This document shows, piece by piece, positions 45,141 to 64,000 of a DNA stretch of 64,000 nucleotides (positions are counted from its first letter, which is position 1; each line of letters opens with the position of its first letter). This stretch comes from Actinomycetota bacterium (GTDB taxonomy: Bacteria; Actinomycetota; Actinomycetes; Propionibacteriales; Propionibacteriaceae): contig JAIUOS010000022.1 in assembly GCA_020161755.1 (NCBI GenBank), forward strand, positions 1 through 64,000, read 5' to 3'. Position numbers and translations under genes: made by a program. Under the pieces are notes generated by a model. The model had not been told where the DNA came from. It was given only the letters and a program-made list of their open reading frames with translations, and did not search any database.

Positions 45141-45164
45141 AAGTTCGGGTTCGGGAGCGAAGGG

Positions 45165-45238
45165 TGGCCAGGGCCGGGATCGAACCGGCGACCTTTCACT
45201 TTTCAGGCGAACGCTACTACCATCTGAGCTACCTGGCC
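45165..45238 (-). tRNA. tRNA-Phe (GAA)
   Basis: On the minus strand the acceptor arms GGCCAGG and CCTGGCC pair fully. The anticodon stem TTCGC/GTGAA encloses loop CTGAAAA (anticodon GAA), and the T arm GCCGG-TTCGATC-CCGGC is intact. The discriminator is A, and CCA is not encoded. It lies 23 bp downstream of tRNA-Asp on the same strand, so the two are probably cotranscribed. Confidence 0.95.
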
Positions 45239-45261
45239 GAAGAAGCAATAGCACGCTTCAG

Positions 45262-45335
45262 CGACCCCGACGGGACTCGAACCCGCGACCTCCGCCGTGA
45301 CAGGGCGGCGCGCTAACCAACTGCGCTACGGGGCC
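45262..45335 (-). tRNA. tRNA-Asp (GTC)
   Basis: On the minus strand the acceptor arms GGCCCCG and CGGGGTC pair with one G-T. The anticodon stem CCGCC/GGCGG encloses CTGTCAC (anticodon GTC). The T arm GCGGG-TTCGAGT-CCCGT is normal and the discriminator is G. It precedes tRNA-Phe; an Asp-Phe pair is common in actinobacteria, often after tRNA-Glu, which is absent here. Confidence 0.95.
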
Positions 45336-46926: not shown

Positions 46927-47397
46927 TCAGGCGGCCGCGACGGTCGAGCTGTAGGTGGCCTTGGCCGCCGTGTCGGGGTCGCTGTGGGCGATCAGCGGGT
47001 GGTCGAAGTCGGTGTCCCAGTCGCCGACGGTGACGCTGACCAGGTCTTTCGCGGTGCTCCAGGCCCGGTTCGCCTTGAAGTGCAGCGGGCTGCCGGTCAT
47101 CACCACCGGCGTGTTGGGCTGGTGGGCCGGCACCAGGTCGAACGGGTTGCTGTCCGCCTCGGTGCCCCACGGGGCGGCTGCGCCCGGTGCCTTGACCTGC
47201 GTCCCGTTGAGCCCAGTGACGGTGAGCGTCAGGTCACGGACGTTCAGCGGCCCGGAGTTCGACACCTGGACGGTGAAGGTGACGTCCTCGTTCACGTTGA
47301 TCGCCGAGCCCGGCGGGTTGACGTCGATGATCTCGATCGTCAGGTAGGTGTGCGGATACGACTCGATCTCGGTCACGAGATCCTGCAGAACGGACAT
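46927..47397 (-). CDS. Hypothetical protein with CARDB/Ig-like beta-sandwich
   Basis: This 156-residue protein has no signal peptide or membrane helix. The central part looks like an Ig/CARDB-type beta-sandwich: INVNEDVTFTVQVSNSGPLNVRDLTLTVTG (about residues 34-63), with the N-S-G-P and DLTLTV pattern of such repeats. FKANRAWSTAKDLVSVTVGDWD follows. Proteins with single domains of this type often bind other proteins; the function here is not known. ATG 47397 has GAGGGGG about 9 nt upstream. It is divergent from the LuxR-type regulator and may be one of its targets. Confidence 0.7.
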   Translation of the reverse strand: MSVLQDLVTEIESYPHTYLTIEIIDVNPPGSAINVNEDVTFTVQVSNSGPLNVRDLTLTVTGLNGTQVKAPGAAAPWGTEADSNPFDLVPAHQPNTPVVMTGSPLHFKANRAWSTAKDLVSVTVGDWDTDFDHPLIAHSDPDTAAKATYSSTVAAA

Positions 47398-47546
47398 GTG
47401 GTGATCCCCCTCGGGTGTTGTCGGCGGGCCCCCTGCCCGCCTGCCATTGACGGTACGAGTGGGACGCCCGGGACGGCGACCGGGGAACCTGCACACCGGA
47501 CCCCACACCGGCGGAAGTGCCCATTGGGGGTCCGGGGCGCGCGCAC

Positions 47547-47552
47547 TAGGGT
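47547..47552 (+). promoter_or_regulatory. Likely -10 box for the leaderless LuxR-type regulator
   Basis: TAGGGT lies 6 nt before GTG 47559. This spacing also decides between two overlapping GTG codons (47557 and 47559). Confidence 0.45.
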
Positions 47553-47558
47553 TCGCGT

Positions 47559-50231: not shown

Positions 50232-50284
50232 GGGCCGTTTCACCGCGATACTGCACGTAGGGCGGCTCGGGAAGGAACACCAGC

Positions 50285-51052
50285 ATGGCTTTCGTGAACA
50301 CCAGCGTGGCGGGCGATGTGGCGATCGTGACCGGGGCGGCGAGCGGGATCGGGCAGGCGATCGCGGTGGCGCTGGCCGAGGCCGGCGCGAGGGTCGGCTG
50401 CGCCGATCTGGCGGCGAGCAGCATGGACGAGACCCTCGCCCGGGTCGCCGAGGTGGGCGGTGAGGGCGTCGCGATCGCCTGGGACGTCACCGACCCCGCG
50501 GACGCGACCCGCGCGGTCGCCGAGGTCGAGGCGCGGTTCGGGCCGCTGGCGCTGGCGGTGAACGCGGCGGGCATCGCCAACGCGGCACCGGCGACGGAGC
50601 TGGGCCTGGAGCAGTGGCAGCGCATGTACGACGTGGACGCGACCGGGGTGTTCCTCGCCTGCCAGGCGGAGGGACGGGCGATGCTGGGCCACGGCCGGGG
50701 CTCGATCGTGAACATCGCCTCGATGTCGGGGTCGATCGCGAACCGTGGGCTGACGCAGGTGCACTACAACAGCGCGAAGGCGGCGGTGATCCACCTGACC
50801 AGGTCGCTGGCGGTGGAGTGGATCCGGGACGGGGTGCGGGTCAACTCGCTGAGCCCGGGCTACACCTGGACGCCGATGAACAAGCGCCCGGAGGTGGCCG
50901 ATCAGGTGGTGGAGTTCGCCGCGTCCACGCCGATCGGCCGGCTCGCCGAGCCGGTCGAGATCGCCGGGCCGGCACTGTTCCTGCTCAGCCCGGCGGCGTC
51001 CTTCGTGACCGGTGTCGACCTGCTGGTCGACGGGGGCTTCTGCTGCTGGTGA
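50285..51052 (+). CDS. Short-chain dehydrogenase/reductase (polyol/sugar type)
   Basis: This 255-residue NAD(P)-dependent oxidoreductase has the cofactor loop TGAASGIG (about residues 16-23), NAAG (about 92-95), the catalytic Ser of NIASMSGS and YNSAK (Tyr about 161, Lys about 165). The C-terminal PGYTWTPMNKRPE segment and the DGGFCCW end resemble SDRs that oxidise sugar alcohols such as threitol or sorbitol; the substrate is not proven. The Asp in GCADLAA after the second strand favours NAD over NADP. ATG 50285 has GGAAGGA upstream. It follows the LAL regulator and is convergent with the DUF488 gene (1-bp gap). Confidence 0.9.
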   Translation: MAFVNTSVAGDVAIVTGAASGIGQAIAVALAEAGARVGCADLAASSMDETLARVAEVGGEGVAIAWDVTDPADATRAVAEVEARFGPLALAVNAAGIANAAPATELGLEQWQRMYDVDATGVFLACQAEGRAMLGHGRGSIVNIASMSGSIANRGLTQVHYNSAKAAVIHLTRSLAVEWIRDGVRVNSLSPGYTWTPMNKRPEVADQVVEFAASTPIGRLAEPVEIAGPALFLLSPAASFVTGVDLLVDGGFCCW

Positions 51053-51053
51053 G

Positions 51054-51398
51054 TCAGCCGAGCAGGTCCTGGAGGACGACCGCTTCGTTGTGTTCGACGT
51101 CCCTCGCTGCATAGAGCAGGGTCACGACATCGTGCTGGGCGCATGTGCTGCGCAGGGCGGTCAGCGCGGGGGAGCCGTCCAGTTCGGCGCGGTACCGCTG
51201 GGTGAACTCGGCGAACTTCGCGGGGTCGTGCCCGAACCAGGTGCGCAGGGCGGTGGACGGGGCGACGTCCTTGTCCCATTCGTCGATGCCGGCCTCCGCC
51301 TTCGAGACCCCGCGCGGCCAGAGCCGGTCGACCAGGACGCGGTAGCCGTCCGTCACGTCGCGGGGTTCGTACACGCGCTTGAGCTTGAGGGTGCCCAT
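51054..51398 (-). CDS. DUF488-family protein
   Basis: This 114-residue protein has the DUF488 signature: LKRVYEPRDVTDGYRVLVDRLWPRGVSKAEA (about residues 4-34) with invariant RLWPRG, WDKDVAPSTALRTWFGHDPAKFAEF and TLLYAARDVEHNEAVVL. The short type is widespread, and its function is unknown. ATG 51398 is the family start; a longer frame to 51491 adds atypical sequence. It is convergent with the SDR gene and divergent from the Gfo/Idh/MocA gene. Confidence 0.88.
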   Translation of the reverse strand: MGTLKLKRVYEPRDVTDGYRVLVDRLWPRGVSKAEAGIDEWDKDVAPSTALRTWFGHDPAKFAEFTQRYRAELDGSPALTALRSTCAQHDVVTLLYAARDVEHNEAVVLQDLLG

Positions 51399-51524
51399 GC
51401 GGCTACCGTAGTCCGGGAGGCGCTCGGGGCCCAGACGTGGCGATATTGACGCGTGTAGATGAAAGCCCATCGGCTTCCCATCGAACTCCACCTGTTCGCA
51501 GTCGCGAGGCGCTTGCCGTCCGCG

Positions 51525-51542
51525 AATCTACAGGCGTAGATT
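51525..51542. promoter_or_regulatory. Inverted repeat AATCTAC-AGGC-GTAGATT upstream of the Gfo/Idh/MocA gene
   Basis: The 7-bp arms are perfect around a 4-bp spacer, 43 bp before GTG 51585, and the right arm overlaps a TAGATT -10-like box. A related TGTAGAT lies at about 51454-51460. It is likely an operator for a repressor of this gene. Confidence 0.55.
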
Positions 51543-51584
51543 AGTGGCCCTGCGCACCTCACCCCTCGAAAGGACGGACGACCC

Positions 51585-52805
51585 GTGAAGATCGGCGTCA
51601 TCGGAACGGGCCAATTCGCCCGCAGCTTCATCAGCCTGTGGCAGCTCCACCCCGCGGTGGAGGCGGTGTACGTCACCGACCTGGTCGCCGAGCGCGCCGC
51701 GCAGCACGTGGAACAGTACGGCCTGGCCGGGAGCTTCCCGGACGTCGACGCGATGCTGGCGTCCGACGTCGATTCGGTCGCGATCATGACGCAGCGCTGG
51801 ACGCACGGCGAGCTGGCGCTGAAGGCGCTCGAGGCGGGCAAGAACGTCTACTCGGCGGTGCCGATGGCGATCAGCGCCGAAGAGATCGCCGCGATCGTGG
51901 CGAAGGTCGAGCAGACCGGGCTGATCTACATGATGGGGGAGACCAGCTACTACAACCCGGCCGTGATCTTCGCCCGGCAGAAGATCGCCGCGGGGGAGTT
52001 CGGACGCGTCTTCTACTCCGAGGGCGACTACGTGCACGACATGGACAACGGCTTCTCCGCCGCCTACCGGTTCAGCGGCGGGGACGACTGGAAGTCGACG
52101 GCCAGCTACCCGCCCATGCTGTACCCGACGCACGCCATCGGCGGGGTGCTCGGCGCCCTGCCCACCCACGCCACCTCGGTGTCGTGCATCGGCATCCACG
52201 ACAGCGGCACCGACGGCATCTTCGACCGTGCCATTTCGGCCTGGGACAACGACTTCTCGAACATGTCCGCACTGTTCGAACTCGCGGACGGCGGCGCGAT
52301 GCGCACCAACGAGTTCCGCCGGGTGGGCTACTGGAAGGGCCACGAGTCCCGGTTCCGCTTCTACGGCACCGAGCAGGTCTTCGAGCAGACCGGGGACGGG
52401 GCGAGCCTGAGCGTGAAGACCGAGGGCGAGGACTACGCCAAGGGCGCCACCCTCGACATCAGCGAGCTGTTCTACACCGGCGAGGGAGCCGTCCCCGAGG
52501 GCTTCGGCGACGTCGACCCCGCGCTGATGCAGAGCTTCGCGTCCGGCTCCGCCCAGGTGCAGGACCGCTCCCGGCTGCCGCGCGAGTTCGACGGCGCCCA
52601 CAACGGGCACGAGGGCAGCCACCACTACCTCGCCGACGACTTCGTCCGCGCCGTCACCACTCGCACCCAGCCGCCGGTCAACGCGTGGCGGGCCGCCCGC
52701 TTCACCCTGCCCGGCGTGATCGCCTTCGAGTCGGCACGCCAGGGCGGTGCGAGGCTGCCCGTGCCCGACCACGGCGACGGCCCGGCCGATCCCCGCTGGG
52801 ACTGA
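51585..52805 (+). CDS. Gfo/Idh/MocA-family oxidoreductase
   Basis: This 406-residue NAD(P)-dependent sugar or inositol dehydrogenase-like protein starts with the Rossmann motif MKIGVIGTGQFARS. VAIMTQRWTHGELALKALEAGKNVYSAVPM follows at about residues 65-95. Most family members have E-K-P at the last position, with a catalytic Lys; here it reads Ala-Val-Pro, so the proton relay must differ. The C-terminal beta-sheet domain includes YPPMLYPTHAIGGVLGAL, where His about 185 may act instead. The start GTG 51585 has GAAAGGA upstream. It stands alone with an operator-like palindrome before it. The hairpin-capable stretch at 52836-52863 (CGGCAC…GTGCCG) may end it. Confidence 0.88.
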   Translation: MKIGVIGTGQFARSFISLWQLHPAVEAVYVTDLVAERAAQHVEQYGLAGSFPDVDAMLASDVDSVAIMTQRWTHGELALKALEAGKNVYSAVPMAISAEEIAAIVAKVEQTGLIYMMGETSYYNPAVIFARQKIAAGEFGRVFYSEGDYVHDMDNGFSAAYRFSGGDDWKSTASYPPMLYPTHAIGGVLGALPTHATSVSCIGIHDSGTDGIFDRAISAWDNDFSNMSALFELADGGAMRTNEFRRVGYWKGHESRFRFYGTEQVFEQTGDGASLSVKTEGEDYAKGATLDISELFYTGEGAVPEGFGDVDPALMQSFASGSAQVQDRSRLPREFDGAHNGHEGSHHYLADDFVRAVTTRTQPPVNAWRAARFTLPGVIAFESARQGGARLPVPDHGDGPADPRWD

Positions 52806-52982
52806 GCGGACGGCACTCAGCACGTCCACCTATACACGGCACTGCTTATAGGAGCTTGTGCCGGGAGGCGACGGACACGACAGACCCGTCTGAGGAGGTG
52901 CCAACTCCGAACCCCACGCTCAGCACCCCTGTGACGAGTGAAGTTGTCCTGGTTTGTCCCACCCATGCGGGCTGACCTCGAT
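52806..52982. other. Intergenic region left of the island boundary
   Basis: No gene is seen. The stretch holds a possible hairpin, CGGCAC…GTGCCG (52836-52863). That segment (52831-52864) also resembles the region before the island ATPase at 58962-58995 (24 of 34 positions identical). The chromosome ends, and the tRNA-Glu remnant begins, at 52983. Confidence 0.5.
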
Positions 52983-53026
52983 TGGCATCCCCAACGGGAT
53001 TCGAACCCGCGCTGCCGCCTTGAAAG
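52983..53026 (-). other. 3' half of a tRNA-Glu gene: attachment-site remnant of an integrated element
   Basis: On the minus strand the sequence runs from anticodon loop bases CTTTCAA (anticodon TTC), through the 3' anticodon stem GGCGG and the T arm GCGGG-TTCGAAT-CCCGT, to acceptor TGGGGAT, G and an encoded CCA. The bases that should pair on the 5' side are missing: CTTTCAA is preceded by GGGCCCAA instead of CCGCC. Thus this is only the 3' half, as left when a tyrosine integrase inserts an element into a tRNA gene. The chromosome lies to the left, the element to the right. Confidence 0.8.
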
Positions 53027-53467
53027 TTGGGCCCGGGCCTAAAGTGGGGTGTTCGGAGGGCCCTCGTGAGCGTCTTTGAGCGTGCGGAGCAACCTCTCAA
53101 ACGGCCTTCAAGGGCCTGATCTGGCGACAACTGTGTTGAGAATGTGTTGAGTCCAGGCTCGACGACGGGCTGCTTGTCGGCGACGGTTGAAGACCAGGAC
53201 CCCCGGTCGTTTCGACCTCAGATTCGGCCTTCGCCCACACAGCCTCACCGAACCCGAGCGCCAGCTTGGCCTGCATCTCTCCCCAGCCGCCGTTGACGAA
53301 GCCGCCGGCCGGTGTCATCCGCGGCTGTGGCACCTAGGATGCAGCTGTCAGGGCCGCGGGGCAAGTGCGGATGCGCCCTCGGCGCCACCGGCGAATCGCT
53401 TGTCGAACGCGATCGCTCACCGCTCGGCAAGGCGGATGTCGTCGGACTCTGTGCCACTCTTCCTGGT
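53027..53467. other. Element end without clear genes
   Basis: No reading frame here has a recognisable product or good start. A tandem pair TGTGTTGAG lies at 53132-53140 and 53143-53151, within 130 bp of the attachment site; such short repeats can be arm-type integrase sites. The rest may be decayed coding sequence. Base composition is less GC-rich than the chromosome to the left. Confidence 0.45.
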
Positions 53468-53786
53468 GTGAACGTCCTCGATGCTGTTGTGCCGATACTC
53501 GCCCTCGGCGGTACTGCGATCCAGGCGACTCAGAGCCTGCGGCGACTCAAGGAGGCGGACCCCGAAGCCCACCGCGCGTTCGTTGCAAGTCGACGACCTC
53601 AAGATCGAGTACGCCCTCACGAGACATCCCGTGCGCTGGAATGAACGCCGGCGCGAGATGGCGCAGTTGCTTCGAGAATCGCCGGCAGAAGCGAAGCTGT
53701 ACAAACGGGTGCGATCGCAGTTGGTGGCATGGCTAATGCTCTTCTTCGCCGCTGTCCTTGCGGTCGTCGCTGCCTTCATGGGCTGA
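53468..53786 (+). pseudogene. Small membrane protein gene with probable frameshift
   Basis: From GTG 53468 one frame encodes a start with a hydrophobic stretch and a charged helix (VLDAVVPILALGGTAIQATQSLRRLKEADPEAHRAF) and then loses character. In the next frame, from about 53590, the sequence continues sensibly with VDDLKIEYALTRHPVRW, NERRREMAQLL and a C-terminal membrane helix (LVAWLMLFFAAVLAVVAAFMG), ending at 53786. Joined, the parts give about 105 residues with one hydrophobic stretch near each end. A one-base change near 53580 would explain the break, whether by mutation or sequencing error. The two parts could also be separate small genes. The protein is not recognised. Confidence 0.4.
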
Positions 53787-53823
53787 GCGCATAGACCCGT
53801 CTGGATGCGATCGCGGTGACGAC

Positions 53824-54672
53824 TCAGTCGCTGAGGCGACGCAGGATGTTCGCGAGCAAGATCACAGCGTCGGCAGCGATTCCGGAGGACGTTCGGTCGG
53901 CTCGCGGTGAGTGCTTCATCTTGTGAGAGAGCGCGGAGGCCTTCTTCACCAGGCCGCGCAACTCCTCGTTCGCCGATCCGGGAAGGCGCCGGTCGATGTA
54001 GGCGCCGATGCGCAGGTCGGTCTTTTCGACGGGCAGCGGCTTGACGCCGTCCGGGCAGTCCAGGTCAGGGTCGTACACCAGCGCGCTGAGTGCTTCGATG
54101 ACACCGACACATCGGTTACCTACATCCTTATAGTCGACCGGCGTCGACGCGGTGGCGAACCGGTGCCGCAGCTGCTCGATCTGGTCGTCTACCAGTGGCC
54201 AGCCCAGGTGATTGCGCGGTGACACGCCACGAGAGAGCTCGTTGGCCGATGCCTGATCCTGAACTGACTCGAGGGCCTTCAAGACCGGCTCGAACTGCTC
54301 CGCCAGCATGTCCCGTCGCGCTTGCCAGCTGTCTCGACCCTCATGTGCAAGCCAGTAGGTACGAAACGAAGGGAAGTCGCTCCACGGCGGATCGAAGGCG
54401 ACCCCCTGACGACGGAGGACAGCCTGTAGCGACCGGTTGGCTTCACGGGACGTGACATCATCGAGCTGCTGCGACCGATCGGTGCCATACGCCTGATACT
54501 GACCTCGCACGAACTGAGTGAGTGCAATCGCGGTCTCCAATGCATCGTCGCCGGGAACCGGTCCGAGGGCGAGTCGGCGGACGATGTCCATTCGAACGGT
54601 CCTGCTGGGGTGCGTCGCCGCCCATGAACCAGCGGGGGCGAACTCCTCCTCGAACAGGTCGCCAAACCTCAT
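53824..54672 (-). CDS. Hypothetical protein with HEPN-like C-terminal helical domain
   Basis: This 282-residue cytoplasmic protein is not assigned to a named family. The N-terminal two thirds contain several Trp-rich helical stretches (PWSDFPSFRTYWLAHEGRDSW). The last ~100 residues (NRCVGVIEALSALVYDPD, then GAYIDRRLPGSANEELRGLVKKASALSHKMKHSP, then a final helix AADAVILLANILRRL) resemble the helical tails of abortive-infection-type proteins. An R-x4-6-H motif of HEPN RNases is not clear, so activity is uncertain. ATG 54672 is chosen; TTG 54702 is possible. It lies beside a Shedu-like gene and an integrase, which makes a defence role plausible but unproven. Confidence 0.6.
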   Translation of the reverse strand: MRFGDLFEEEFAPAGSWAATHPSRTVRMDIVRRLALGPVPGDDALETAIALTQFVRGQYQAYGTDRSQQLDDVTSREANRSLQAVLRRQGVAFDPPWSDFPSFRTYWLAHEGRDSWQARRDMLAEQFEPVLKALESVQDQASANELSRGVSPRNHLGWPLVDDQIEQLRHRFATASTPVDYKDVGNRCVGVIEALSALVYDPDLDCPDGVKPLPVEKTDLRIGAYIDRRLPGSANEELRGLVKKASALSHKMKHSPRADRTSSGIAADAVILLANILRRLSD

Positions 54673-54884
54673 GCGACGATGATCCCAGCTAAGCGGCGAC
54701 AACGTCCGAGTCGACAGACTCGCTGCAAGCGGGGCAAGCGGGTCGCGCGGGCGGCATTCTGCGCGTGCGGTCTTCGAGGGATTTGCGGGGTACGGGTGTC
54801 ACCTACCTTGCGAAGGCCAGCAAGTCGCTGATCTGCAGCTCAGGTCGAGCAGTAGACCTACTCTCGCTCTGCTAGCTTCGATGG

Positions 54885-55814
54885 GTGCATGGCACAGAGA
54901 CCGATCCAGACTGGCTGACGCATCGATCGGCGGATTCCAACCCTGACCGCCCCAAAGCAATGGCTTGGCAGGAGTATCACGACCGCGCGCTCAGTGACTG
55001 GTGTGCGCTGCTCGCTCAGGATCCCGAGGAGGACCGAGTACAGGAGTTCCTTGAGCTACACCCGGCGATGATCCCGGGCGGGAGTGGCGACATCGGTCCC
55101 GGGGGCCATCACAATTCGGAGATGGGCCTCGTGTTTCGTCAACCCCAGCTTCGTGGGATGGATCGGTCCTTTCTGCCGGACTTCATGTGGGTAACCCAGT
55201 CCTCATCGCTGGCGACTCCAATTCTGATCGAGATTGAGAAGCCCTCCCGGCGGTGGTTTCGACGTGATGAGCGACCGACGGCCCACTTCACCGCGGCTCA
55301 CGACCAATTGGCGGAGTGGAAGGCTTGGTTTGCTAACGAGCGGAACGTCGGGACGTTTCGGCAGCGCTACCTGTTCGGCGAGCGGTACGAAAGGCGACGA
55401 TTCCTACCCCAGTACCTGCTTGTGTACGGTCGCAGTCACGAGTTTGAGTTGGGGGGAGGACACCTCAACCCCGACTTCCTCAATCACAAGCGCGACCACA
55501 TGCGGCGCGACGATGAGCACTTCATGACCTTTGACTCGTTGCGGCCACGCCATGACCACAGCAACTCCATCACGGCGACGATGACAGCAACCGGCCCGGC
55601 GCCTTTCGCGTTCTCCCCGGTGTACGGGACGGGACCTCGCACCGGAGAGACCGCGTTGATGTTGGGGTCGCCGCTGGATGCGCTAGGAAGGAGCGTGATG
55701 ATGTCCGACGAGAGGCGCCAGTATCTTGCGGCTCGATGGCGCTTCTGGGCCGAGCGACATGAGGACGACCTACGTCTTCGAAGACGCATCACATACAGAT
55801 CTGGGCTGGAGTAG
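54885..55814 (+). CDS. Shedu-like (DUF4263) nuclease candidate
   Basis: This 309-residue protein shows the layout of Shedu anti-phage proteins: a short helical N-terminus, EDRVQEFLELHPAMIPGG (about residues 49-66), then a probable PD-(D/E)xK nuclease core. In the core, FLPDF gives Asp99, LIEIEKPSRRWF gives Glu116/Glu118 and Lys119, and HDQLAEW gives Gln141. LPQYLLVYGR then forms a strand and FMTFDSLRP a later motif. Shedu uses one protein, SduA, to block phage. The (D/E)xK spacing is slightly unusual (E-I-E-K), so catalytic competence is not certain. GTG 54885 is taken; ATG 54960 is an alternative without a better ribosome site. Composition is clearly less GC-rich than in chromosomal genes, which suggests transfer. 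Confidence 0.65.
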   Translation: MHGTETDPDWLTHRSADSNPDRPKAMAWQEYHDRALSDWCALLAQDPEEDRVQEFLELHPAMIPGGSGDIGPGGHHNSEMGLVFRQPQLRGMDRSFLPDFMWVTQSSSLATPILIEIEKPSRRWFRRDERPTAHFTAAHDQLAEWKAWFANERNVGTFRQRYLFGERYERRRFLPQYLLVYGRSHEFELGGGHLNPDFLNHKRDHMRRDDEHFMTFDSLRPRHDHSNSITATMTATGPAPFAFSPVYGTGPRTGETALMLGSPLDALGRSVMMSDERRQYLAARWRFWAERHEDDLRLRRRITYRSGLE

Positions 55815-55970
55815 CGGACGAGTTGGAGACCCCCGCGCCGCAGCGGCGGGGAAGCGCACCCGGGTCGAGACCCCGAAAGACAGCGCCGTGTAGCAGGACG
55901 GGGGTGCAGGTTCGCCCGACGGCGGCAATCCCCTTGGTTGCTCGTGCTGATCGTGGATCGGAGCCGAGGA

Positions 55971-57140
55971 TCAGTGGTCCGGTAGCGCGAGTTCCTCGCG
56001 GGCAGTGAGTTCGGCCCGCCGGGCGGCGTCGAGGGCGTCGGCGACGGTGTCGAGCCTGTCGGCGAAAAGGTGACCGTACAGGTCGAGAGTCATGGTGGCG
56101 GACTTGTGGCCGAGCATGCGCTGGACGACCTTCACGTCGGCCCCCGCGGCGATGGCCAGCGAGGCTGCGGTGTGGCGGAACTCGTGCGGATGGAAGTGCT
56201 TGGTGAACACCGGGATCTTGATCCCGCCGGGCCCGGTCGTGCTGACGGGCTGGCCGCCGGCGTCGAGCTTGCGGATGCACAGGCCCATCTCCTCGGCTGC
56301 AGGCGTTAACGCGGCGCGCTGGAAGGTCTGAGCGCGGAGCACGCCACCGCGTGGGCCTTGGAAGAGAAGGTCGTTGGCCTGCCGGCCGCGGACGGCGGTC
56401 TCCAGGTCGGCGATGAGGAAGCGGGGGAGTGCGACTTCGCGTCGTTCGTGTCCTTTCGTGGCGCCCCAGACCATGACGCCCCTCACCGGCGAGACCGATT
56501 CGGCGACTACCACCCGGCGGCGTGTCAGGTCGACGCGCGATACGCGAAGGGCAGCCACCTCGCCCCACCGCAGTCCGGTGTAGGCCAGGAAGAGGACCAA
56601 GAGCCTCCAATAGGGCCCGACCAGTGACGCCATGTCTTCGACCTGGGCGTGGGAGAGGAACCGCTTCTCGGTTGCGTGGACGCGGGGCAGGGAGATGTCC
56701 TCGGCGACGTTGCGTGCCAGGCGCCCGTCGCGGACAGCGGTCGCCAGGACTTGGGAGAACACACGGTGAATCTTGCGAACGGAGGCTGGCGCGAGCTTGA
56801 TGCCGGCGATCCACTTCTGGACGTCACCGTGGGTGACCTGAGCGAGCTGAACCTCGCCCCACCGCGGCTTGATGTGCGCCTCGATCGCATCGCCGTATCG
56901 CTCACGCGTCTTGGGTGTGAGGTTGGTCTTGCCTGCGAGCCACTGGTCTGCCCACGGTCCGACCTTGACCCGCGCGCGGGAGGGATCGATGTAGCCGCCG
57001 TTGATCTTGGTGCCTTCGACGTTGACCAGGTGCCCCTCTGCGTCCTTCTTGCGCGTGAACGACTTGCTTCGGCTCTTTCCTTCCGGCGTCCGCCAACGGG
57101 CGTAGTAGCGTCCGTTGGCCATCTTGTCGATGGTGCCCAT
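55971..57140 (-). CDS. int: Tyrosine-type site-specific integrase
   Basis: This 389-residue recombinase has an N-terminal arm-binding domain (about residues 1-60, ANGRYYARWRTPEGKSRSKSF), a core-binding SAM-like domain (about 62-145) and a catalytic domain. The active-site residues are all present: Arg191 (TGLRWGE), Lys229 (ATKGHER), His319 and Arg322 (HPHEFRHTAAS), His345 (LGHKS) and Tyr355 (LDLYGHL). It would integrate and excise the element at the tRNA-Glu site found 2.9 kb away. ATG 57140 is the family-like start. The excisionase-like gene lies 19 bp upstream, the usual xis-int order in actinobacterial integrative elements. Confidence 0.93.
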   Translation of the reverse strand: MGTIDKMANGRYYARWRTPEGKSRSKSFTRKKDAEGHLVNVEGTKINGGYIDPSRARVKVGPWADQWLAGKTNLTPKTRERYGDAIEAHIKPRWGEVQLAQVTHGDVQKWIAGIKLAPASVRKIHRVFSQVLATAVRDGRLARNVAEDISLPRVHATEKRFLSHAQVEDMASLVGPYWRLLVLFLAYTGLRWGEVAALRVSRVDLTRRRVVVAESVSPVRGVMVWGATKGHERREVALPRFLIADLETAVRGRQANDLLFQGPRGGVLRAQTFQRAALTPAAEEMGLCIRKLDAGGQPVSTTGPGGIKIPVFTKHFHPHEFRHTAASLAIAAGADVKVVQRMLGHKSATMTLDLYGHLFADRLDTVADALDAARRAELTAREELALPDH

Positions 57141-57159
57141 GCGTAATCCGGTCTGTGCT

Positions 57160-57444
57160 CTAGCCGGCCACGCCGTACTGCCGGTCGAGCCAGGTGAGCA
57201 CGTCGCTCTTCTTGTAGCGGATGCCGCGCGGGCCGAGGTGGAAGGAGCGTGGTCCGATGCCCTGGTACCTCCACGTGCGCAAGGTGGCGTTGGGCGTGCG
57301 GAGCATGAGCGCGACCTCGGCGGTAGTGAGGAGCTGATCCTCATCAAATGCTGAGGCGTTCGAGGGCGCGCTGGCACCGGGTGGTGCGTCGCGGTGGTCC
57401 GGGCCGGGCCGGTCGTCGAATCCGGGCGTGTAGCTGGCGGTCAT
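57160..57444 (-). CDS. xis: Excisionase-like helix-turn-helix protein
   Basis: This 94-residue DNA-binding protein has a C-terminal winged helix of the MerR/AlpA type: LLTTAEVALMLRTPNATLRTWRYQGIGPRSFHLGPRGIRYKKSDVLTWLDRQY spans about residues 38-90, and its Trp-Arg-x-x-Gly-Ile-Gly-Pro turn is typical of excisionases. Such proteins bend DNA at attachment sites and steer the integrase toward excision. The N-terminus (YTPGFDDRPG) is probably disordered and resembles the start of the ATPase encoded upstream. A very good ribosome site (AGGAGG, 8 nt) fixes ATG 57444. Confidence 0.85.
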   Translation of the reverse strand: MTASYTPGFDDRPGPDHRDAPPGASAPSNASAFDEDQLLTTAEVALMLRTPNATLRTWRYQGIGPRSFHLGPRGIRYKKSDVLTWLDRQYGVAG

Positions 57445-57659
57445 GGCGTCGTCCTCCTTGTGGGTGCCGATTGACGTCCTGACCCACTAAGCCGACGGCT
57501 AAGGCCGATCCGGACAAACTCCGTGATCGTTCTTCCGCGAAGTTGTACCTCCCGAGCGGCGACGGCGTCCGCGCACGAAGAGCACCTGTCACCTGCAAGC
57601 GGCAACGCGGGCGTGAAGCTGGAGGCTCTCTGCCCGCGCAGCAACCCCGGGCGGATGCA

Positions 57660-58943
57660 CTACGTGTGCGCCGGCGGCAAATCGCGGGAGCCAGCTGCGC
57701 GGCGCGTGGCCCGGGGGCTGGAGCCCGTCGGCAGCGCGGCTTGGGGCTGGCCTAGATAGAGTCGCCGGCTCTGGGTGGCGGCGAGGACGAAGTCGGCGAA
57801 GCCGGGCATGGCGTAGCGGAGGAGTCCGGTTCCGGCGGATTCGATGATCCCCTTGTCGATGAGGGCCTTCCGGGTGCCGCTGAGTTGCGGGGTGGTTCGG
57901 TCGAGCAGTGCGGTGATGTCGCGGGTGCGGGCGATGCCGTAGTTGTCAGCGACCTGTGCGATCGCAGTCAGCAGCGCCCGCTCGGCGGAGGTCGCTTTGG
58001 CCCACCGGCCACGGAACATGCCGGCGTCGAGTCCGTCGCGGACCTGGGTTATGGCTGCGGTCACGGCGGCGAGTTCGATCGCCGTGTCTGGCTCGGGGTC
58101 GGCGGAGAGCCATGCCTCGTCGCCGTACTTCTGGATCAGGTAGGGCGATCCTGCCGCGGCGGTGAGGGCGGCGTCAGCGGCGTCGGTGTCCCAAGTGACG
58201 TGGAGTTGGAGGCTGGGCTCGAGGAGGGCTCGTTCGGCGGCCGTCTGGTCGAGGCGGTCGAGGGTGTGGAAGTCGAACCGTTCGGTGAATGAGGCGGCCT
58301 CCATCACCTTCTCAGGTGTCGTGGGCAGGCCGGCGGCGAAGATCACGATCGGGATCTTGCCGGGGGTGGTGAGAGCGTCCTGGATCGCGTTGAACAGCAC
58401 CACCAGCTGAGTCCGGGGGGCTTCTTGCAACTCGTCCAGGAGCAGGACGAGCCCGGGCTGGTCGTGTTCGGCGACGATCTCGGCGGCTCTGGCGAGCAGT
58501 TCGCCGAGGGCTTGGCGGGCCGAGGTTTCGGTGTCCGTTCCACGCGAGTGCGGCTCGCTTGTGACCTTGACGACGCCAGCGTTGAGTTCGACCGAGAGGG
58601 TGCCAAGCCGGCGGACGAACCGATCCCACAAGGGTGCTGCGCGGCTCTGGAGCGGGGAGATCGCCTCGGCGATTCGTCCGGCGAGGAGCTGGATGTTGTC
58701 GGACACGCTGTCGAGGGACAGCGAGCAGGTGACGAACCCGCGGGCACGGGCGGTGGTGGCGATCTCACCGAGCGTCACTGTCTTGCCCATGCCCCTGGTG
58801 CCGGTCAGCACGGTGACCTGGGTCGCGGACCGTCCAGAGTTCGCCACCCGGGTGAGCGTGGCAGCCGCACGCGAAAGCACCTGGTCGCGGCCGACCAGCA
58901 CGGACGGGCGAGCGCCGAACCCCGGTGTGTACGGACTCTCCAT
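57660..58943 (-). CDS. AAA ATPase (ORC/Cdc6-like, STAND family)
   Basis: This 427-residue P-loop ATPase starts with SPYTPGFGARPSVLVGRDQVL, then has Walker A GTRGMGKT (residues 48-55), a Walker B-type LVLLLDELQEA (about 163-173), the sensor-like IVIFAAGLPTTPEKV and the lid GSPYLIQKYGDEAW. A winged-helix-like C-terminus includes TSAERALLTAIAQVADNYGIARTRDITALLDR (about 313-345). Proteins of this type are frequent on actinobacterial mobile elements and are often labelled replication-initiator- or regulator-like; the exact role is unclear. ATG 58943 is chosen (AGGTGA 5 nt upstream); GTG 58952 is possible. It precedes xis and int on the same strand, with a 215-bp gap holding no clear gene. Confidence 0.85.
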   Translation of the reverse strand: MESPYTPGFGARPSVLVGRDQVLSRAAATLTRVANSGRSATQVTVLTGTRGMGKTVTLGEIATTARARGFVTCSLSLDSVSDNIQLLAGRIAEAISPLQSRAAPLWDRFVRRLGTLSVELNAGVVKVTSEPHSRGTDTETSARQALGELLARAAEIVAEHDQPGLVLLLDELQEAPRTQLVVLFNAIQDALTTPGKIPIVIFAAGLPTTPEKVMEAASFTERFDFHTLDRLDQTAAERALLEPSLQLHVTWDTDAADAALTAAAGSPYLIQKYGDEAWLSADPEPDTAIELAAVTAAITQVRDGLDAGMFRGRWAKATSAERALLTAIAQVADNYGIARTRDITALLDRTTPQLSGTRKALIDKGIIESAGTGLLRYAMPGFADFVLAATQSRRLYLGQPQAALPTGSSPRATRRAAGSRDLPPAHT

Positions 58944-59255
58944 CGACTTCACCTAACTATCTATAAACAGGGCGTCTTATACGAGCTTATACGGGAGCGC
59001 GTAGGTTCGGGTCCGCCCGATCGGCCTTCCCCGGCAGTGTCAGTTGGGCCATTGACGGCCGGAGTTATGCTGATTCTGCCCCACCCCCTCGGGCTGATCG
59101 GCCTTCCCGGGTGACTCGTCTCGTTGGTGTCGGGCTTACAACTGAAGCCGCGATCGCGCTCCACGGTCTACTTCTGATGTAGCAACTTCTGTCTGTCTGT
59201 CCGGATCGACCCCTCTTCATCGGCTTAGTGGGCTAGAGAGAAGAAGGGTGCCCAC
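58944..59255. promoter_or_regulatory. Divergent promoter region with CTTATACG repeats
   Basis: This 312-bp region lies between the leftward ATPase and the rightward secretion-type genes. It has two direct repeats CTTATACG (58976-58983 and 58986-58993, one helical turn apart) and an AT-rich TATAGATAG just before the ATPase, which reads as its -10. No gene is seen. The repeats could be operators or protein-binding iterons. An AGAAGAAGG ribosome site lies at the right end for the lipoprotein gene. Confidence 0.5.
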
Positions 59256-59855
59256 ATGACCGAACCCCGCCGGCTCCCCCTGGGCGGCTGCGTGCTCGCG
59301 GTCGTGCTGCTCGCTGGTTGTACGCCCGGAACGGCCTCCCCGCAGACCACGCCGACCCCGACCACCGCGACGACATCGAGCATCGCAGCCCCGTCCGTGT
59401 CGGCCACTCCGACCCCGACTCCGACAGCCACTTGGAACGCCACCCAGTCGGCAGCGATCAAGGTCGTCGAGGACTACTTCGCCGCAGGCGAGCGACTGTT
59501 CGCCGATCCCTCCCGCTACTCCAAGACGGAGGCGAAGAGCGCGCTGGAGCCACTGACCGGGAAGGACATGCTCGCCGGAAACCTGGCGCTGTTTCAGAAG
59601 CTGAAGGCGGAAGGAAAGCGCTACGAGGGCGCCGCTCGGATCAGCTGGATCAGCGCCTCGGGCATCTTCGGCAGCGGACTTGGGGAGTCCGTCAACATCA
59701 CCATCTGCCGTGACCCGCAGGGCCAGGCCCTACTAGACAAGAACGGCGAGGTCCTATCCAAGGTTCCTTCGGCGATCCGAGAGTTCGAGGTCCGCAACCA
59801 GTCCGGATTCCGGATCGTGGGTGAGAAGGAAGGGTTCGGTGCGCCATGTCCATAG
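59256..59855 (+). CDS. Hypothetical lipoprotein
   Basis: This 199-residue exported lipoprotein has the signal GGCVLAVVLLAGC (lipid-modified Cys at residue 22), followed by a Thr/Pro-rich linker (about 25-58) that could span the wall. A globular part of about 140 residues with IKVVEDYFAAGERLFADPSRYSK and a final GFRIVGEKEGFGAPCP follows. The layout resembles small actinobacterial lipoproteins with an NTF2/SnoaL-like fold, though the match is not certain. It is the first gene of a run of six on the plus strand and overlaps the next by 10 bp. Confidence 0.8.
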   Translation: MTEPRRLPLGGCVLAVVLLAGCTPGTASPQTTPTPTTATTSSIAAPSVSATPTPTPTATWNATQSAAIKVVEDYFAAGERLFADPSRYSKTEAKSALEPLTGKDMLAGNLALFQKLKAEGKRYEGAARISWISASGIFGSGLGESVNITICRDPQGQALLDKNGEVLSKVPSAIREFEVRNQSGFRIVGEKEGFGAPCP

Positions 59856-60625
59856 TCGCACGGGCGCTCTCGATTCTGCTGGCCGCAACGACACTGGCCG
59901 GGGTTCTCGCGCCGACCACCGCCCGAGCCGATGTCGTGTGCGACGAGGTGACCCGCATGTGCACCATCGAGGACGGCGGTGGCGGCGGTGGTGGTGGCGG
60001 TGGTGAGCCGCCGAAGGTGCCGTTGTGTTCGTCGTTCCCGCCGGTGGCGGTGCCGGAGGACCCGCCGGAGCCTGACTGGATCTTCATCGAGTGTCGGTTG
60101 TCGTCGACGGAGGAGGACACGATCGGGTTGTGGGTGCCGCCGCGGGAGAGCGCGGAGCAGCTGGCCTGGTTGTTGATTGCCCGGTTGCAGTTGAAGCCGG
60201 TGGAGATCGGCCTGACGCCGCTGGATCCGGATGTGATGACGGCGGTGGGTATCCCGGTGTGGTTGTGGGTGGATAACCCGTCGCGGACGAGTTGGGGGCC
60301 GGCGTCGATCAGCGCCGGTGGGATCTCGCTGACCGCGAAGGTGACCTCGGTCACCTGGACATTGGGGGATGGCACCTCGTTGCGGTGCGGGCGGGGCACC
60401 GAGTGGCGCCCCTCGATGGTGGACCGGAACGGCATGGTCGGTGAGTCCCCGACGTGCGGCCACATCTATCAGCAGCAGGGCCGGTATGCCGTGCGGGCGG
60501 TGGCGCATTGGGCTGCTGAGTGGCAGGGCTATGGCGAGTCGGGGACGATCCGGCTCGATGTGGGTTCCACCCGCCAGCTGCGGGTGGGGGAGATCCAGGT
60601 GATCGTGACCCGGGGCGGCAGGTAG
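59846..60625 (+). CDS. Secreted PKD-domain-like protein
   Basis: This 259-residue protein has a Sec signal (ARALSILLAATTLAGVLAPTTARA, cleavage near residue 28). A CDEVTRMCTIED segment with two Cys and a run of ten Gly follow, then an unknown middle region and a PKD/Ig-like domain (about 165-235). The PKD pattern is SVTWTLGDGTSLRCGRGT, then PTCGHIYQQQGRYAVRAVAHW. Proteins of this shape commonly lie upstream of SAF-domain and CpaF genes on actinobacterial elements; they may be surface or pseudopilus components. It starts inside the lipoprotein gene and ends 10 bp before the SAF gene. Confidence 0.75.
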   Translation: MSIVARALSILLAATTLAGVLAPTTARADVVCDEVTRMCTIEDGGGGGGGGGGEPPKVPLCSSFPPVAVPEDPPEPDWIFIECRLSSTEEDTIGLWVPPRESAEQLAWLLIARLQLKPVEIGLTPLDPDVMTAVGIPVWLWVDNPSRTSWGPASISAGGISLTAKVTSVTWTLGDGTSLRCGRGTEWRPSMVDRNGMVGESPTCGHIYQQQGRYAVRAVAHWAAEWQGYGESGTIRLDVGSTRQLRVGEIQVIVTRGGR

Positions 60626-60635
60626 GAGTGAGCCG

Positions 60636-61292
60636 ATGAAGACCGTTGAGACCTCACCCGGCACCGGCAGCCCGGCTGTGTCGCCGGCGCCGGTGCCGGA
60701 GACGACGAAGTTGCAGCGGCGGCCCAGCGCGGTGGTGCTGGCGCTGGTGTTGGTGTGCCTGGGCGGCGTGACCGGGCTGTGGTTGTGGACGTCGTCCTCG
60801 GCGGCGACCGAGGTGGTCGCGGTCCGGACACCGGTCGAACGCGGTCAGCTGATCGAGCTGGCCGACCTGACAACGGTCCGGGTGACGCTGGATCCTGCGT
60901 TGCGCACGATTCCCGCGTCCGGGATCGATTCGGTGGTGGGTCGGCGTGCGGCCACGGATCTGGCGGTGGGCACTTTGGTCGCGCCGGAGCAGGTGAGTGA
61001 TGCGGTGGTTCCGGCTGCGGGGTTCGCGGTGGTGGCGGTGCCGATCGCGCCGGGTCTGATCCCGACGGAGCCGCTGAAGGCGGGTGACACGGTGCGGCTG
61101 GTGCAGGCACCCGCGCAGGGGGTGGAGGTGACCGGTGCCCCTGCGGAGATCACCGGGACGGTGTTGAACGTCACGGCGGGGGACACCGAGACGGTGGTGG
61201 ATGTGCTGGTGGCCGACAACCGGGCCGGGGAACTGGCTGCGAGGGCGGCGTCGGGTGAGCTGGCGTTGGTGTTGGCGAGCCGGGAGCGGTGA
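60636..61292 (+). CDS. SAF-domain protein, CpaB-like
   Basis: This 218-residue protein has a cytoplasmic Pro-rich N-terminus and one membrane helix (about residues 32-53, SAVVLALVLVCLGGVTGLWLW). A SAF domain follows (about 62-122, VRTPVERGQLIELADLTTVRV, then AATDLAVGTLVAPEQV), as in CpaB/RcpC, which help assemble Flp pili across the wall. The C-terminal beta domain ends with VVDVLVADNRAGELAARAASGELALVL. It has a good ribosome site (TAGGAG). It lies 3 bp before the ParA-like gene and supports a Tad-type machine. Confidence 0.82.
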   Translation: MKTVETSPGTGSPAVSPAPVPETTKLQRRPSAVVLALVLVCLGGVTGLWLWTSSSAATEVVAVRTPVERGQLIELADLTTVRVTLDPALRTIPASGIDSVVGRRAATDLAVGTLVAPEQVSDAVVPAAGFAVVAVPIAPGLIPTEPLKAGDTVRLVQAPAQGVEVTGAPAEITGTVLNVTAGDTETVVDVLVADNRAGELAARAASGELALVLASRER

Positions 61293-61295
61293 GTC

Positions 61296-62132
61296 ATGGC
61301 TTTGATCACGCTGGCATCGGCGGGCGGTGCGCCGGGGGTGACGTCGACGGGGTTGGCGTTGGCGTCGTGCTGGCCGCGCCGGTGCTTGTTGGTGGAGGCT
61401 GACCCGTCCGGCTCGTCGGCGCTGTTGGCGGGGTTCTGGCGGGGCACCCGGGACCACACCGGGGTGGTGGATCTGGTGAAGGCGCACCGGGCCGGGGTGT
61501 TGGCCGATGCGTTGTTGCGGATGGCGATGCAGGTGGACGGCACCCAGGCGACGGTGATTATCGGGTCCCGCTCGCACGAGCAGGCCGCCGGGCTGGCCCG
61601 GTTGTGGGAACCGCTGGCCGGAGTGTTGCGGGATCTCGCCGCCCGCGACCAGGACGTGATCGTGGACGCCGGCCGGCTCGGCCTGGAGGGCTCACCCACA
61701 CCGCTGATCGAGCAGGCGGATGTCACGGTGCTGGTCAGCCGCACCCGGCTCGCCTCTGTTGCGGCGGCCCGGTCGTGGGCGCTCACCCTGGGCGAGGCGG
61801 CGTTGCCGAGCCACGAGGTGCGGCTGTTGCTGGTCGGCGCGGGCCGCCCGTACAGCGCCGGCGAGGTGGGTCGTGCGCTCGGGTTGGCGGTGGTCGGCTC
61901 GATCGGTTGGGACCCGGAGCGGGCTGCGGTGTTCTCCGACGGTGCGCCGCTCCCGCCGCCGCGGGGGGTGCGTCGCCTGTTCGGTGGGAGCGCGGCGGCG
62001 GCGTTTGCCGGGTCGGGCTATCAGCGCAGTGTGCAGGCGGCCGGGGAGGCGTTGCGGGCGTTGGTGGACCGCTCCGAGCAGGAGCGGGCCCGGTGGATCG
62101 CACCACCGCGCAGGGAGGAGACCGGGTCATGA
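61296..62132 (+). CDS. ParA/CpaE-like P-loop protein with degenerate Walker A
   Basis: This 278-residue protein looks like a MinD/ParA-type ATPase of the CpaE group, which places pilus machinery in the cell. The N-terminal loop reads SAGGAPGVTST (about residues 7-17), where active proteins have KGGxGKT; both signature Lys residues are absent. The Walker A' strand is CLLVEADPSGSSAL, and a later DVIVDAGRLG resembles Walker B. No receiver domain precedes the ATPase fold. Such degenerate versions may bind but not hydrolyse nucleotide. The stop overlaps the CpaF start by 4 nt (ATGA), so the two are made together. Confidence 0.75.
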   Translation: MALITLASAGGAPGVTSTGLALASCWPRRCLLVEADPSGSSALLAGFWRGTRDHTGVVDLVKAHRAGVLADALLRMAMQVDGTQATVIIGSRSHEQAAGLARLWEPLAGVLRDLAARDQDVIVDAGRLGLEGSPTPLIEQADVTVLVSRTRLASVAAARSWALTLGEAALPSHEVRLLLVGAGRPYSAGEVGRALGLAVVGSIGWDPERAAVFSDGAPLPPPRGVRRLFGGSAAAAFAGSGYQRSVQAAGEALRALVDRSEQERARWIAPPRREETGS

Positions 62133-63673
62133 GTGAGCTGGAAGAGCGCGAGTTGATGGATCTGCCGATGTTCGGTAGCGACAAGCCGGCCGGCGCCCGT
62201 CGGCCTGGCCGGGTGCGGGGCGGTTTCCGTGTCCCGGGCGAGCCGGAGCCGCCCGTGCCGGCGTCGGTGTCGCGGGTGGTGCCGATCCGGCCCGCGCACG
62301 CCACCGCGCCCCGCCCGGCCGGAGATGTGGATTGGGCGGAGGTGGCCCGGTTCCGTGGTGATGTGGCCAAGCGCCTTCCGGGCCGGGTGGGTGGTGGTGT
62401 GGCTGACCGGGCCGAGGAGGAAGCGGCGGGCTGGTCGGTGATCCGGCAGTTGCTGGAGGAGGACACCGCCACGTCGGTGGCCCGTACGGGCGAGTTGCGT
62501 TCACCGGAGGCGCAGGAGGCGTTGGCGCAGGCGATCTTCGACAGTGTGTTCCGGCTGGGCCGGTTGCAGCCGTTGGTGGACGACCCGCGGGTGGAGAACA
62601 TCCTGGTGTACGGCTGTGACCGGGTGGTGGTGGAGTACGCCGACGGGTCGATGCGGCAGCTGCTGCCGGTGGCCGACAGTGACGCCGACCTGGTCGGGTT
62701 CATCGCGTTCGTCGCCTCCCGAGCCGACAACCCGCGTTCCTTCACCCCAGCCCACCCGTCGCTGAACTTGACGTTGGCGGACGGGTCCCGGTTGGCGGCC
62801 TCGCTGGAGACCGGCCGGGTGTCGTTGGTGATCCGCCGGCACCGGATCCGCAGGGTCACCTTGGCTGATCTGGTCGAGTGGGGGTCGCTGTCGGAGGTGA
62901 TGGCGGACTTCCTGCGGGCGGCGGTGCGGGCCCGGAAGTCGATCGTGGTGTCCGGGGCGCAGGGTGCGGGCAAGACCACCCTGGTGCGGGCGTTGTGTGC
63001 GGAGATCCCGCGGATGGAGATCGTGGGCACGTTCGAGTCGGAGCGGGAGTTGTTCCTGCCGGAGATCGAGGGGCAGCACGCGGTGGTGTTCGACTGGGAG
63101 ATGCGGGCCGGGTCTGGGGAGCGCAGCGAGGACGGCAGCCTGGCTGGGCAGCGGACCACCGGGTCGCAGGTGACCAGCAGCTTCCGGTTCCGCGCCGACC
63201 GGCAGATCGTCGGTGAGGTCCTGGGCGCTGAGGCGATGGACATGATCAAGGTGATGGAGTCGGGCACCGGCTCGATCTCAACCACCCATGCGGCGAACGC
63301 CCGGCTGGCGGTGCACAAGCTGATCACCTGCGCGATGGAAGCCGGGCCGCACGTCAGCCACGACCTGGTCTCCGCGAAGCTGGCCGCCACCCTCGACTTG
63401 GTGGTGCAGATGCATTCGGAGATCACCCCGATCGACGACTTCGGCCAGGTCGCCCAGAAACGCCGCTACGTCTCCGAGATCGTCGAGGTCACTCCGGGGG
63501 AGTGGCCGCGCGGCATCTCGTTCACCACCGTGTTCCGCCGTGTGCCCGGCCAGTGTGGGGTGGCCGACACCCGGCCCGACAGCATCTGGGACGACCTGGT
63601 CGCCGCCGGCCTGGACGATGTCGCCTTCGAACGCGAAGCCGCCGAGCACCACCCGCCGGGAGGGCTGCGATGA
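62129..63673 (+). CDS. CpaF/TadA-family secretion ATPase
   Basis: This 514-residue ATPase of the type II/IV secretion superfamily would power a Tad-type (Flp) pilus or a related conjugation apparatus. An N-terminal Pro-rich region precedes the family N-domain (about residues 130-230, FRLGRLQPLVDDPRVENILVYG). The P-loop is SGAQGAGKTTL (about 274-284), the Asp box is in VGTFESERELFLPEI, the Walker B-like segment is RQIVGEVLGAEAMDMIKVM and the His box is ISTTHAANARLAVHKL. All nucleotide-binding residues are present. The stop overlaps the TadB start by 4 nt. CpaF lookalikes occur both in Tad loci and in actinobacterial conjugative elements. Confidence 0.9.
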   Translation: MSELEERELMDLPMFGSDKPAGARRPGRVRGGFRVPGEPEPPVPASVSRVVPIRPAHATAPRPAGDVDWAEVARFRGDVAKRLPGRVGGGVADRAEEEAAGWSVIRQLLEEDTATSVARTGELRSPEAQEALAQAIFDSVFRLGRLQPLVDDPRVENILVYGCDRVVVEYADGSMRQLLPVADSDADLVGFIAFVASRADNPRSFTPAHPSLNLTLADGSRLAASLETGRVSLVIRRHRIRRVTLADLVEWGSLSEVMADFLRAAVRARKSIVVSGAQGAGKTTLVRALCAEIPRMEIVGTFESERELFLPEIEGQHAVVFDWEMRAGSGERSEDGSLAGQRTTGSQVTSSFRFRADRQIVGEVLGAEAMDMIKVMESGTGSISTTHAANARLAVHKLITCAMEAGPHVSHDLVSAKLAATLDLVVQMHSEITPIDDFGQVAQKRRYVSEIVEVTPGEWPRGISFTTVFRRVPGQCGVADTRPDSIWDDLVAAGLDDVAFEREAAEHHPPGGLR

Positions 63674-64000
63674 CCGGCGCTCTGCTGTCCATGCTGGCCG
63701 GGGCGATGATCACCGCCGGCGTGATCCTCGGCATCTATGGGATGACACCCGGCCCGGCCCGTGAGCGGCGCCCGCGTCCGCGTCCGGCATGGCTGGTGCG
63801 GGCGGCCCGGATGCCGACCTGGCAGCGCTGGGCGCTGGTGGCCGCCACGGTGGCGGGGTTGGTGGCGAGCGTGTTCGGGGTGCCGCTGGTGGTGGCGGTG
63901 TTGTTGCCGTTGGCGGTGCTCGGCCTGCCCGTGCTGCTGGTGACCTCGGATGGGGGCCGGCGGATCGCCCGGCTGGACGCGATCAGTGAGTGGACCCGGA
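63670..64000 (+). CDS. TadB-like type II secretion F-family membrane protein (3' truncated)
   Basis: Only the first 110 residues lie in the window; the frame is open at base 64,000. It has two or three membrane segments (about residues 3-24; 53-72 and 75-92), a basic loop between them (RERRPRPRPAWLVRAARMP) and then RRIARLDAISEWTR. That last segment matches the start of the cytoplasmic F domain in TadB proteins. TadB and TadC form the inner-membrane platform on which the CpaF ATPase acts. Start ATG 63670 overlaps the CpaF stop (ATGA). TadC, pilins and TadE-like genes would be expected beyond the window. Confidence 0.82.
   Translation, partial: MTGALLSMLAGAMITAGVILGIYGMTPGPARERRPRPRPAWLVRAARMPTWQRWALVAATVAGLVASVFGVPLVVAVLLPLAVLGLPVLLVTSDGGRRIARLDAISEWTR

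Follow-up and report, generated by a model that had tools for sequence, protein, structure and literature searches.

A probable integrative and conjugative element with Tad pilus genes at tRNA-Glu(TTC) in a Propionibacteriaceae draft genome

The right-hand part of the DNA stretch analysed here, from position 52983 onwards, is very probably the integrase/Tad end of an integrative and conjugative element (ICE) with a MobF relaxase and type IV secretion, inserted in a tRNA-Glu(TTC) gene. The stretch (the window) comprises 64,000 nucleotides from an Actinomycetota bacterium of the Propionibacteriaceae, namely bases 1-64000 of contig JAIUOS010000022.1 (C22, 75459 bases) in the draft assembly GCA_020161755.1 (61 contigs, 4.08 Mb, 96% complete). 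A preliminary description had proposed an island in tRNA-Glu that begins at 52983 and runs past the right edge. New relative to that description are the placing of the other end on another contig (C9), the assignment to MobF/type IV secretion ICEs, a cargo of Shedu and broken Lamassu genes, and the apparently inverted element body. Among named genomes, the nearest kin of the TadA protein lie in Micropruina sp. SSC1, a Propionibacteriaceae bacterium and actinobacterial metagenome-assembled genomes. The host is presumably Micropruina, an activated-sludge genus (PMC5974061), or a close relative. Features are listed in Table 1; relatives are denoted by G numbers.

The tRNA-Glu insertion site and its two halves

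On the minus strand, window positions 52983-53026 read CTTTCAAGGCGGCAGCGCGGGTTCGAATCCCGTTGGGGATGCCA, the 44-bp 3' half of a tRNA-Glu(TTC/UUC) from the anticodon loop through CCA. The preliminary description had reported this 3' half without a 5' half, and sequence identity, ARAGORN and Rfam all bear it out: no 5' half lies directly left of 52983, ARAGORN calls no tRNA at the fragment, and the only tRNAs that Rfam detects on C22 are tRNA-Asp and tRNA-Phe. A BLAST search of 52900-53100 against the genome returned three places, namely the query itself, C9:73876-73951 and a tRNA-Glu(CTC) on contig C56. The C9 locus is the sole intact tRNA-Glu(TTC) of the assembly and matches the fragment at 43 of 44 positions (E 1e-14). 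An intact copy had thus been predicted correctly, but it lies on C9 and not on the same contig; C22 holds none up to its end at 75459. The fragment is the only displaced tRNA-Glu piece in the assembly.

Comparison with relatives identifies which 3' half is native. The fragment is identical (44/44) to the tRNA-Glu of G015, G017, G021, G024 and G033, and joining the 5' half at C9:73876-73907 to it yields a tRNA identical at all 76 positions to those of G015, G017, G021 and G024. The tRNA now on C9 differs by one base, the discriminator A73 in place of G73 (C9:73948). Since the joined flanks restore a perfect tRNA, the fragment is the host's own 3' half, and the 3' half on C9 arrived with the element. 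Most relatives carry G73, and A73 occurs also in G026.

Gene order leads to the same locus. In most relatives examined, tRNA-Glu, tRNA-Asp and tRNA-Phe lie in this order on one strand; the interval from tRNA-Glu to tRNA-Asp holds 0.07-11.6 kb of variable genes and lacks the island. In ten relatives, the glycosyltransferase gene also seen at window 45447-46868 sits between tRNA-Glu and tRNA-Asp, just before the latter. Upstream of tRNA-Glu, C9 encodes an SH3-like-domain protein and a metallopeptidase-like protein (names by inspection), as do the relatives. These shared flanking genes identify the DNA to the left of the tRNA on C9 and of 52983 on C22 as opposite flanks of a single ancestral locus. 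The 53-64 kb genes are missing from the tRNA-Glu/tRNA-Asp locus in every relative examined, so that the synteny comparison proposed in the preliminary description came out in favour of an island.

The sequences beside the cores also look like element ends at both C9 and C22. The 200 bp to the right of the fragment match the arm beside a displaced core in G027 (contig C184) with z 17, and their direct repeats also precede other displaced cores; repeats of the same type occur at the C9 end and at the SSC1 ends. After the C9 tRNA, the first 200 bp hold a terminator hairpin followed by CTCAACACA repeats, and score z 9-14 against both the element ends in SSC1 and G026 and the tRNA-Glu(CTC) flank on C56; with native tRNA-Glu(TTC) flanks the scores are only z -0.6 to 2. 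No canonical integrase-side arm was found in 55815-55970, between the SduA gene and the integrase gene. A stretch of about 39 bp (window 53202-53240) recurs in G026 (C17), in the organism's own C44 and in G021 (C4 and C10), and is perhaps the tail of a common gene.

Recombinase, Tad and conjugation genes

The integrase has all its catalytic residues (R191, K229, H319-x-x-R322, H345 and Y355), and HTH_17 and phrog_66 excisionase matches support the neighbouring gene as an excisionase (Xis), both as anticipated in the preliminary description. The island therefore has its own site-specific recombinase, a complete tyrosine integrase plus Xis. We place the integrase start at 57140, a conserved ATG supported by alignment, rather than at the listed open-reading-frame start of 57377 (468 aa), which overlaps the Xis gene. 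Identity is 79% to the integrases at tRNA-Glu(CTC) in G026 and G015, and Xis adjoins the integrase in homologous elements too (65% identity). The C-terminal catalytic region matches Int of PDB 6emy (E 3e-7), which we take to be Tn1549 Int; Tn1549-type integrases are distant from this one, which is site-specific for tRNA-Glu.

The Tad-like set of the preliminary description is real and, as part of an island predicted to pass 64 kb, runs on to about 69.9 kb of the contig. Past TadB, C22 encodes TadC, a Flp-like pilin (named only from its size, its position and a hydrophobic stretch), three TadE-like proteins, a LysM protein, a helix-turn-helix protein and a sigma factor, up to 71958. TadA, TadB/TadC, the pilin and TadE-like proteins are thus joined on C22, and a prepilin peptidase is found in the relaxase end on C9. 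TadA/CpaF is 83-89% identical in homologous elements.

Conjugation genes lie on other contigs. Between the C9 attachment (att) end and the contig end, C9:109968-115451 encodes a MobF relaxase (TrwC, E 3e-84), and this relaxase end holds ArdC, MobF, the type IV prepilin peptidase and a restriction-methylase, collinear with SSC1 in reverse. C9 stops at sequence common to contig C48, with terminal bases shared, as expected of an assembly broken at repeats. On contig C41, transfer genes for TrbL, SCO6880-family and VirB4-like proteins accompany another Tad set; VirB4 ATPase, coupling protein and channel genes are found in the homologous elements of SSC1, G021 and G026 and on C41.

The closest complete counterpart is an element in the closed chromosome of Micropruina sp. 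SSC1 (CP059261.1, about 1535707-1607917), 72.2 kb long with 42-bp att repeats at its bounds and a second repeat 8.2 kb further. Its plan is tRNA-Glu(CTC), integrase, Tad, LysM, transfer genes, VirD4, restriction-methylase, MobF, ArdC, metal-resistance cargo and att repeat. The likeness covers the integrase (75%), Xis (59%), all Tad genes (55-83%), LysM, the use of the tRNA-Glu 3' half as att site and CAACACA-type arm repeats, and its type IV secretion, VirD4, restriction-methylase, MobF and ArdC genes are collinear with our C41, C48 and C9. It differs in its target, tRNA-Glu(CTC) rather than (TTC), in having the integrase beside the intact tRNA, in its metal-resistance cargo and in having both att sites on one molecule. 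The same integrase, Xis and Tad genes stand beside tRNA-Glu(CTC) in G026 and G015 as well. The joint place of integrase and Tad genes between the att repeats of SSC1 shows that they move together, as the preliminary description held.

Other classes of element fit less well. An actinomycete integrative and conjugative element of the FtsK/TraB type was rejected, the C9 end having MobF and the homologous elements using VirD4, VirB4-like, TrbL and SCO6880-family proteins. Nor is this a prophage: the genes annotated in 53-75 kb include none for capsid, terminase, portal or tail proteins, and the matches of TadA in 12 phage records are all distant.

These parts suggest a course of events. The element brought in a replacement 3' half, now on C9, that comes with A73, the terminator hairpin and the CTCAACACA arm repeats, and displaced the host's own 3' half to 52983-53026. 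Excision by the integrase and the HTH_17 excisionase would leave an attB consisting of the 76-nt tRNA with G73 followed by ATCGAGGTCAGCC, and an attP of GGGCCCAA-core-ACCAGGTGAAACCCC. The MobF relaxase would then nick the circle, and the DNA would leave via a VirD4-like coupling protein through an SCO6880/TrbL/VirB4-type secretion machine. The Tad genes would belong to the conserved backbone and might serve to bring mating cells into contact. Shedu and the broken Lamassu are cargo.

Orientation of the element and alternative explanations

Several observations weigh against a single ICE spanning C9 and C22. The two contigs are unjoined in the assembly. Neither carries type IV secretion genes, and the contig that does, C41, has its own Tad set (87% identical DNA). 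The integrase lies about 3 kb from the displaced fragment, compared with its position beside the intact tRNA in SSC1, G026 and G015. Finally, the junction of a cut lmuB with probable cation-efflux sequence at about 74.2 kb is a rearrangement or a misjoin. Since C9, on the tRNA side, holds the relaxase end and C22, on the fragment side, holds the integrase end, the element body is either inverted or composite.

In a composite locus, the fragment and its arm would be the end of one tRNA-Glu element, and the integrase and Tad genes a second ICE inserted or recombined in reverse. Its favour lies in the integrase orientation relative to the core, opposite to that in SSC1, G026 and G015, and in the fact that similarity to the canonical integrase end breaks off at 56007, within the final integrase codons, with a 3-kb Shedu segment between integrase and core. 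Tandem elements at tRNA-Glu are present in SSC1 and suggested in G015 and G026, and the genome has at least two further relaxases of the MobF family. However, both contigs are reversed together, and one inversion that turned the body around with respect to its att site accounts for both; the arm repeats of the two ends are of one type, and the assembly holds a single displaced fragment. We consider a composite unlikely, though it carries more weight than the alternatives that follow.

An assembly artefact would mean that only part of 53-75 kb belongs at tRNA-Glu, the misjoin lying near 74.2 kb or somewhere in the 53.2-56.0 kb interval. The fragmented assembly, with contig ends at repeats common to the ICE copies such as the terminal bases of C9 and C48, and the LmuB/cation-efflux chimera speak for it. 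The arm-core junction at 53026, however, matches the independent G027 junction over about 100 bp; the end itself is therefore not chimeric, and an artefact appears improbable. Least credible by far is a Tad cluster that is resident and non-mobile, the tRNA fragment lying near it by chance or as a relic. Many relatives encode more distant TadA homologues (about 35-40% identity) that may indeed belong to resident clusters, but these Tad genes occupy this locus in none of the relatives examined, this Tad subtype lies elsewhere inside att-bounded or plasmid-borne conjugative backbones, and the restored empty site contradicts a chance fragment. A single ICE, its body apparently inverted, is the preferred reading; C9 and C22 would hold its two ends, and it may still be mobile.

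Cargo, related elements and wider spread

Table 1 Features of the window and of the remainder of contig C22
Feature	Position	Strand	Evidence
tRNA-Phe and tRNA-Asp, native downstream neighbours of tRNA-Glu in the genus	45163-45335	-	ARAGORN; gene order in relatives
MGDG-synthase-like glycosyltransferase (name by inspection), native flank	45447-46868	+	62-79% identity, same place in 10 relatives
Accessory genes between native flank and fragment, outside the present ICE	46927-52805	.	Domain searches; synteny
attR core, displaced host 3' half of tRNA-Glu(TTC)	52983-53026	-	Genome BLAST; relatives; rebuilt tRNA
Element-side arm beside core	53027-53226	-	Direct repeats CTCAACACA TT CTCAACACA about 110 bp from core
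292-aa protein, cargo	53824-54702	-	No Pfam, NCBIfam, PADLOC or PHROGs match
Shedu SduA-like protein, apparently full length, cargo	54885-55814	+	PADLOC SduA E 7e-94; Pfam SduA_C E 4e-17
Tyrosine integrase, 389 aa, catalytic residues complete	55971-57140	-	Pfam Phage_integrase E 3e-21
Excisionase-like HTH_17 protein	57160-57444	-	HTH_17 match; phrog_66 excisionase
AAA_16 ATPase in Xis/Tad cargo slot	57660-58952	-	Domain search; AbiE genes fill the slot in G026
Putative lipoprotein and PKD-domain protein, Tad operon start	59256-60625	+	Domain search; synteny
SAF-domain (CpaB-like) protein and TadZ-like ATPase	60636-62132	+	TadZ by position/synteny only, without family match
TadA/CpaF ATPase	62129-63673	+	Pfam T2SSE E 2e-18
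TadB, crosses window edge, ends at contig position 64533	63670-64000	+	Domain search; synteny
lmuC and truncated lmuB	after 71958 to ~74235 of C22		PADLOC

Different copies of the element carry different anti-phage systems in their cargo slots. Here, SduA (DUF4263) covers profile positions 3-275 of 289, and a Shedu activity is predicted. Lamassu is incomplete, with LmuC, a cut LmuB (profile positions 5-469 of 657) and no LmuA directly upstream; the cut lmuB continues as what is probably a cation-efflux tail (at E 0.014 only), and a cation diffusion facilitator (CDF) transporter lies at the contig edge. AbiE is found in G026, and a CBASS-type cyclase with a two-transmembrane (2TM) effector in G021. 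With this variety (Shedu, Lamassu, AbiE, CBASS-type), the element family acts as a vehicle for defence genes. In C9, G021, G026 and SSC1, MobF is also preceded by a large type IIG-like restriction-methylase gene.

Outside the ICE, the accessory genes left of the fragment encode a LuxR-type regulator, a short-chain dehydrogenase/reductase (SDR) and a DUF488-like protein (names by inspection), and a GFO/IDH/MocA oxidoreductase. They are absent from the same place in the relatives examined and may represent an earlier layer of insertion at this hotspot; G017 has a 90% match to the oxidoreductase, but at another place. A 91-base tRNA-His(atg) called by ARAGORN at window 27211-27301 is without Rfam support and probably spurious. 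On C9, the region between the tRNA end and the relaxase end (75766-104000) is dense in transposase genes (IS110-, IS21-, IS1380-, ISL3- and IS3-like, by inspection) and holds a catabolic operon with a RuBisCO-like gene.

Units of about 9.3 kb in G015 (L135 3751-13074) and G026 (L136 5001-14329), flanked by two tRNA-Glu cores and without an integrase, encode a giant repeat-rich surface-type protein (2333-2849 aa); they may be passengers mobilised by the ICE integrase. Related Tad elements adjoin tRNA-Pro(GGG) in G021 and G015, and the organism's own C2 tRNA-Pro(GGG) lies near another Tad set (L141 3218-4101, L146 4876-7073, L169 11187-11261), suggesting a second tRNA target of Tad elements. For the G021 element, no displaced tRNA-Pro fragment was found within about 50 kb.

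TadA relatives also occur on 183 plasmids, mostly of Streptomyces and Rhodococcus. Nocardioides QY071 pCHL and Xylanimonas pXCEL01 share the order SAF, TadZ-like, CpaF, TadB, TadC, pilin-sized gene, three TadE and LysM, and pCHL and two Pimelobacter simplex plasmids also share the VirB4-like ATPase (60%) and MobF (64%). The Nocardioides, Pimelobacter and Xylanimonas replicons differ in being circular plasmids, with TadA only 43-48% identical.

Tad pilus sets are usually read as adhesion systems. Actinobacterial ICEs with type IV secretion and MobF were described in 2011, using int, a MobF (TrwC) relaxase and VirD4-like and VirB4-like proteins as search criteria (Ghinet et al. 2011, PMC3218068). 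Genes of the same kinds are found in this genome, the secretion genes on another contig; the section of that paper on these ICEs describes no Tad pilus genes. Propionibacterium acnes 15.1.R1, of the same bacterial family, carries a 54-kb TAD mobile element, reported in 2012, with tadZABC and a ParA gene (PMC3316620). That element is apparently extrachromosomal, with no insertion boundary in the core genome, and is likened to ours by description, not sequence. In the literature collection searched, no paper combined ICE, Tad pilus and Actinobacteria. The insertion mechanism is the classical tRNA-gene route; the Tad-plus-conjugation backbone is under-described.

We tentatively suggest that actinobacterial Tad pili might include a dedicated mating-pair pilus, in which a MobF relaxase, an SCO6880/VirB4-type channel and a full Tad set with its own prepilin peptidase spread together as tRNA-integrated ICEs and plasmids; on this proposal the pilus would serve mating. 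Both ends of the present element could be fixed from sequence alone, and tRNA-Glu genes are an integration hotspot in Micropruina. With a Tad set inside a conjugative backbone common to ICEs and plasmids, mating contact in high-GC Gram-positive bacteria becomes directly testable.

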